Shown here piece by piece: positions 3,460 through 42,113 of a stretch of DNA of 64,000 nt. The first letter of the stretch is position 1. Each line of letters begins with the position of its first letter. The stretch is from Bathymodiolus brooksi (taxonomy: Eukaryota; Mollusca; Bivalvia; Mytilida; Modiolidae). The position numbers and the translations under genes are program-made. The DNA lies in the NCBI GenBank assembly GCA_963680875.1, contig OY804586.1, positions 57,756,203 to 57,820,202 on the forward strand, read 5' to 3'. Below the pieces are notes generated by a model. The model was given only the letters and a program-made list of their open reading frames with translations. It made no database searches and had not been told where the DNA came from.

Positions 3460-3510
3460 ATGTGGCCGATTGTCTTCGTCCTGTTTGGCTGTCTTTGTCA
3501 ATTTGTTCAT
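3460..3510 (+). CDS. WAP gene exon 1: signal peptide
   Basis: ATG at 3460 opens 17 codons reading MWPIVFVLFGCLCQFVH, an ideal hydrophobic leader. A consensus donor GTAAGT follows at 3511, leaving phase 0. The next exon also starts in phase 0 and continues with a short polar stretch to the first WAP cysteine, so cleavage probably falls near the exon 1/2 join. The 20-kb gap to exon 2 is the weak point: exon 1 could belong to another gene. Confidence 0.6.

Positions 3511-42113: not shown

Follow-up and report, generated by a model that had tools for sequence, protein, structure and literature searches.

A split gene for a predicted secreted two-WAP protein whose fifth exon heads a satellite array in its own intron

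A stretch of 64,000 nucleotides of the Bathymodiolus brooksi genome (hereafter the window; C15:57756203-57820202) very probably carries a seven-exon gene for a small, secreted, cysteine-rich protein of 147 aa, with a signal peptide, two WAP domains and a cysteine-rich tail, belonging to a recently amplified tandem family on one chromosome in which exon 5 has grown into 89-bp arrays. The gene is of an ordinary kind and is a new member of the WAP family; its unusual part is the acceptor-dead exon-5 satellite that heads intron 5 in a young gene cluster.

Architecture of the gene

Six of the exons had been proposed by a first-pass annotation of the window. All of these are real and lie exactly where it had placed them, with GT-AG introns in the phases that it had given (0, 1, 0, 1, 1). 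Exons 1-6, once joined, read open through 138 aa with no stop, and the product begins with a hydrophobic stretch and contains two eight-cysteine domains. It had missed a seventh, terminal exon, with which the coding span becomes 3460-45259. The exons are listed below with their identities to P0001, the database protein described in the next paragraph; where an intron interrupts a codon, the residue counts towards both exons.

3460..3510, + strand: exon 1, start codon and predicted 17-aa signal peptide (by eye), ends in phase 0; 17/17 residues as in P0001; 10 genome matches
23671..23773, + strand: exon 2, first half of WAP domain 1, four cysteines, phase 0 to 1; 34/35 residues as in P0001
24223..24281, + strand: exon 3, second half of WAP domain 1, CC pair and two cysteines, phase 1 to 0; 20/20 residues as in P0001
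36565..36646, + strand: exon 4, first half of WAP domain 2, phase 0 to 1; 26/28 residues as in P0001
38502..38567, + strand: exon 5, second half of WAP domain 2, 66 nt, phase 1 to 1, first unit of the tandem array; 21/23 residues as in P0001
42060..42113, + strand: exon 6, cysteine-rich tail, six cysteines, CCGPPPCC, phase 1 to 1; 15/19 residues as in P0001; 19 genome matches
45231..45259, + strand: exon 7, coding part 45231-45256 (GLLPTNISR, then stop), TGA 45257-45259; 6/9 residues and the same end as in P0001; 18 genome matches

P0001 was retrieved from a search of 5.8 billion proteins and is 147 aa in length, with eight member sequences and a source contig of 963 nt. Once exon 7 is added, 136 of the 147 residues are identical between P0001 and the window, with no gap and with all joins crossed, and the fastest change is seen in the tail. 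This gapless match, together with Pfam WAP hits on both domains, backs the earlier proposal of a split gene for a secreted two-WAP protein. Since a 42-kb gene is too large for a 963-nt contig, the source of P0001 would be a spliced RNA or a retrocopy, and the 11 residue differences show that it belongs to a different copy or allele, or to a different species. Searching the proteins again with a two-sequence profile added only P0007 and P0008. The exon-5 reading is present in P0002-P0007, whereas P0008 is an exon-1 reading that continues into the intron. Judged by eye, P0003 resembles a version with a single exon-5 unit, while several units seem to be present in P0004 and P0005. A search of viral contigs returned no relatives of P0001 and no exact exon-5 core.

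WAP domains and their two-exon module

A Pfam search of the joined protein found WAP alone, in two stretches (33.5 bits). The HMM search that had been suggested as a check was also run on each domain separately and gave 28.9 bits for domain 1 and 24.2 bits for domain 2, against a Pfam WAP (PF00095) cut-off of 20.8. Both domains had been described as canonical; each indeed holds eight cysteines and scores above the cut-off, but in domain 1 the spacings C4-x6-CC and C7-x4-C8 are each one residue longer than usual. The usual WAP spacings are 5 (C4 to CC) and 3 (C7 to C8).

When the two domains are aligned, an intron splits the same glycine codon in phase 1 in both, and both modules begin in phase 0. 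This fits the earlier idea of a duplicated two-exon module, although the modules are not perfectly alike, since the phase at the end is 0 for domain 1 and 1 for domain 2. As the domains are otherwise dissimilar, such a duplication would be old. A structure model of P0001 from the single sequence was poor (mean pLDDT 47), and a PDB sequence search gave no match for either the protein or the two-sequence profile.

Exon 5 as the first unit of a satellite

Next to exon 5 the window contains a second, decayed version of it, which the first-pass annotation had not reported:

38591..38656, + strand: tandem copy of exon 5, 89 bp beyond exon 5, with the acceptor changed from TTAG to TTGG, the donor from GT to GC and the first cysteine of the CC pair to arginine

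Exon 5 was found in 15 gene copies, and in 14 of them it heads a tandem array of 2-49 units: 7 in copy A, 2 in B, 47 in E, 6 in F, 6 in G, 2 in H, 3 in I, 2 in J, 6 in K, 2 in the window, 11 in L, 7 in M, 11 in N and 49 in P. Copy D has a single exon 5. The array-bearing copies span C15:55028500-58972200, and the arrays are confined to this cluster as far as the search extends, which scored 150 of 247 candidates. Within loci, 139 of 144 unit spacings are exactly 89 bp, three are 88 bp, one is 90 bp and one is a 7-kb interruption (copy H not counted). The arrays are thus head-to-tail, of fixed period and homogenised, as satellite DNA is.

The first unit differs sharply from those behind it in its splice sites. 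Both AG and GT are present in the first unit of 15/15 copies, whereas among 147 later units the AG is kept in 3, the GT in 123 and both in 2; copy N contains two inner units with AG and GT. The consensus sequences of first and later units disagree at 4 of 89 positions, the A of the acceptor among them. A stop occurs in 3 of 146 later units and all four cysteines are kept in 129 (the unit of copy H is not included).

Distinct variants among the later units amount to 24 nonsynonymous, 11 synonymous and 2 stop changes, close to the neutral expectation of 25.2, 10.8 and 1.0; this count covers 91 of 97 later units, six ill-fitting ones having been dropped and the twin arrays P and J and copy H left out. 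The arrays are accordingly without coding constraint, a further property of satellite DNA, and the fit to neutrality indicates that the later units stay open through youth and homogenisation and not through coding use. A coding role for the array units was considered and dropped because their variation is neutral and because the 23 nt that separate them are too few for an intron.

These features would be most simply explained if exon 5 together with 23 nt of flank was duplicated in tandem, after which a later unit would have lost its AG acceptor and spread by unequal exchange, giving rise to the 89-bp arrays. The arrays, sitting in intron 5, would be spliced out, and the first unit would stay under splicing control. 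Copy D may represent the state before the duplication. That the acceptor is missing from nearly every later unit points either to a single founder without it or to selection against additional functional acceptors. We consider it very unlikely that the arrays form a lasting system, with as many as dozens of decoy 5' splice sites and with a reservoir of units from which the live exon would be rewritten by unequal exchange or gene conversion, and in which copies such as N could yield alternative second halves of the WAP domain.

The locus is a clear example of an intronic satellite founded by a coding exon of the same gene, as seen in 14 of the 15 copies, with 2 to 49 units. A literature search for exon-derived satellites brought up nothing on such arrays in titles and the opening lines of abstracts, which does not prove that none has been published. 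Individuals are likely to differ in the number of gene copies and in the length of the arrays, in which case the locus would be a marker of unequal exchange.

In intron 4 (36761..36782, + strand) part of the exon-4 3' end, with its GT, is present a second time, which makes a second partial exon duplication in the gene. Short copies of the exon-4 3' end are also present in A, E, G, H, J and P, about 200-220 bp past exon 4.

A gene cluster on one contig

Searches of the 2.0-Gb assembly (136 contigs) with single exons gave the match numbers listed above for exons 1, 6 and 7, all of them on C15 and on the + strand. Seventeen of the exon-6 matches lie at 55.06-59.02 Mb and two near 49.5-49.6 Mb. 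As only 10 exon-1 matches face the 17 exon-6 matches of the cluster, several copies may be incomplete or carry an exon 1 that has diverged. Hits were sorted by position, by hand, and the copy letters (A-P) and the pairing were assigned in this analysis. So sorted, they suggest two putative gene types: one (A, C, E, G, K, M and P) with exon 6 84-86% identical to that of the window, and another (B, D, F, H, I, J, L, N and O, with the window itself) with exon 6 93-100% identical. A gene of type one is the next upstream of a gene of type two in the pairs A-B, C-D, E-F, G-H, K-window and M-N. More distant matches resembling the WAP half of exon 4 (59 and 61%) were seen at C15:3860862 and 54810783, and are possibly older relatives.

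The twin of the window, copy J (C15:57357052-57421051), lies about 399 kb away and is 99.1-99.99% identical to it in six of seven stretches, 94-98% in the satellite stretch and 100% in the exons compared (1-4, 6 and 7). Copies E and P, 3.01 Mb apart, are 98.3-99.99% identical over the stretches compared, and the remaining copy pairs are 0.6-16% different. In the closest copies the satellites and retroelements of the window's introns have been copied along with the gene.

Such near-identity is what would be seen if part of the cluster were an assembly artefact, in which the two parental haplotypes of one locus had been laid in tandem, and the pairs window/J and E/P are in keeping with it. However, the 0.6-16% divergence of the other pairs and the range of exon-5 units from 1 to 49 indicate that at least the main copies are distinct loci, and we regard an artefact as a possibility to be kept in mind but a rather unlikely one. 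A recent tandem amplification accounts better for the cluster as a whole.

Selection and status of the window's copy

AG and GT are present in all fully aligned copies of exon 2 (8 copies), exon 3 (7), exon 4 (7) and exon 6 (8); an eighth exon-4 copy, G, is cut by the end of its stretch and was left out of the splice-site and variant counts. Across these four exons none of 34 distinct variants changes a cysteine codon or introduces a stop, against about 6.6 expected neutrally, an expectation summed over exons and based on distinct sequences only, with small counts. Nonsynonymous and synonymous variants number 6 and 8 in exon 2, 2 and 1 in exon 3, 9 and 1 in exon 4 and 7 and 0 in exon 6. Small as these numbers are, those of exons 4 and 6 point to non-cysteine positions that are either free to change or driven to change.

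It is also conceivable, though unlikely, that the copy in the window is a silent recent duplicate, a pseudogene in waiting, and that another family member makes the transcript behind P0001. Such a reading would account for the 11 of 147 residues at which P0001 differs. The twin matches the window fully in the aligned exons 1-4, 6 and 7 and at more than 99% in six of seven stretches, so that decay may not yet have had time to show in these copies. The window also has a 23-nt deletion in exon 7 and a decayed copy of exon 5. Against this, its splice sites, frame, stop position and all cysteines are intact, and the exon-7 deletion falls behind the stop of the frame used by P0001. Splicing of the window's copy along this exon chain is predicted.

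A third WAP frame in exon 7

Exon 7 contains, in a frame other than the one used by P0001, a further feature:

45231..45357, + strand: remnant of a third WAP domain, with a TGA and a 23-nt deletion in the window; open in 4 of the 8 copies read

Read from the first base of the exon, this frame shows the WAP spacing C-x6-C-x5-C-x5-CC in copies B, D, L and N (D has one extra residue before the CC). A stop ends it in L and N, whereas B and D run past that point. It is broken by a frameshift in F, by a TGA in I, and by a TGA and the 23-nt deletion in J and the window. When the frames of N, L and B were submitted to Pfam, the WAP scores were 27.2 for N, 22.6 for L and 20.7 for B, which narrowly misses the cut-off of 20.8. 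Variants in this frame look neutral (8 nonsynonymous, 5 synonymous and 1 stop in B, I, L and N; D, F, J and the window were left out for length differences).

The frame is most likely a relic of a three-WAP ancestor. Its openness in half of the copies and the scores of N and L would also be in keeping with some family members making a three-WAP protein, through an unseen exon or an alternative donor that enters exon 7 in phase 0. Exons 4, 5 and 6 all end in phase 1, however, so that the known chain does not enter this frame, and P0001 takes the other one; with the frame broken in F, I, J and the window and its variation seemingly neutral, we consider a three-WAP product distinctly unlikely and favour the relic.

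Specificity of the exon chain

Half-domain patterns beside splice-like signals were counted over the window. The + strand holds two first-half patterns (exons 2 and 4) and three second-half patterns, which are those of exons 3 and 5 and one in exon 6 that is not a WAP half; the - strand holds two first-half patterns and one second-half pattern, without a sensible gene. At least two of each pattern were present in 1 of 200 dinucleotide shuffles. The shuffle control is by itself modest, and the match to P0001 is the decisive evidence for the gene. Single half-domain patterns do arise on the + strand of shuffled windows (means of 0.49 first-half and 0.18 second-half patterns), but a chance assembly of open stretches is extremely improbable, as the whole chain is matched by P0001 and exons and splice sites are conserved in the copies read.

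Repeats in and around the gene

The long introns are occupied by the following repeats:

9875..12662, + strand: retroelement frames in intron 1, reverse transcriptase in two of three (Pfam)
13019..15433, + strand: 43-bp satellite in intron 1, 56 copies
16925..18310, + strand: 53-bp satellite in intron 1, 26 copies
25868..26679, + strand: 59-bp satellite in intron 3, 14 copies
31484..32609, - strand: retroelement frames in intron 3, with RNase H and with an integrase core below the Pfam cut-off
40177..41959, + strand: 23-bp satellite in intron 5, about 100 bp ahead of exon 6

It had been predicted that gene finding by long frames would report satellite frames in place of this gene. For the window this is true, its longest frames, of up to 1764 aa (55852-61146), being those of a satellite; that array, however, lies downstream of the gene, and the longest frames inside the gene are those of retroelements. 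The array in question, a 30-bp satellite of 186 copies at 55530-61168, is open in several frames on both strands and would readily mislead a gene finder that relies on long frames. To model the genes of clusters like this one, calling must take account of splicing or of homology.

Among 16 pattern matches in prokaryote assemblies, two were confirmed as relatives of the intron-1 reverse transcriptase (60 and 68% identity); both are in records of Bathymodiolus gill symbionts and are presumably host DNA. Rfam and ARAGORN found no RNA family and no tRNA in the window. By eye, tRNA-like motifs can be discerned in a 53-bp satellite at 49810-50344 and, downstream of exon 6, in a single copy at about 42149-42215. 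They may stem from a SINE of tRNA origin; Rfam and ARAGORN do not call them.

Possible function and comparison with known systems

WAP proteins are protease inhibitors, antimicrobial proteins or matrix proteins. By analogy, the protein described here most likely acts extracellularly as a protease inhibitor or a matrix protein. The published systems below are compared with it by their descriptions.

Perlwapin, which is described with three WAP domains, inhibits the growth of nacre crystals (PMC8194122), and shell proteins of Perna viridis contain WAP domains (PMC6641155). With perlwapin and perlwapin-like shell matrix proteins of molluscs the present protein has in common that it is small, predicted to be secreted, cysteine-rich and composed mostly of WAP domains. 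Instead of the three tandem WAP domains of perlwapin, two are translated here and are followed by the CCGPPPCC tail. In this respect the third frame of exon 7 is suggestive.

The crab protein Es-DWD1 is a two-WAP protein of 136 aa that is described as inhibiting subtilisin A (PMC3742519). Like such crustacean double-WAP (DWD) or type III crustin-like proteins, the present protein has two WAP domains behind a predicted signal peptide (recognised by eye), within a common size range of about 136-147 aa. In the mussel Mytilisepta virgata, six WAP-like proteins are described as foot-specific and the WAP domain as enriched in the mantle rim (PMC5549309), so that several secreted WAP proteins occur in a mytilid, as they appear to do here.

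The gene structure can be compared with two further systems. Micro-exon genes (MEG) of Schistosoma are described as encoding secreted proteins from many short exons separated by long introns (PMC10526429), as is the case here; they belong to another phylum and encode other proteins, their exons measure 3-81 bp as compared with 51-103 bp here, and the array units here are mostly unspliceable. The gigantic satellite-containing introns of Drosophila (PMC6508621) share with the present gene the presence of tandem arrays within introns. Unlike what is described for those introns, the array unit here is the gene's own adjoining exon, with the live exon as the first unit.
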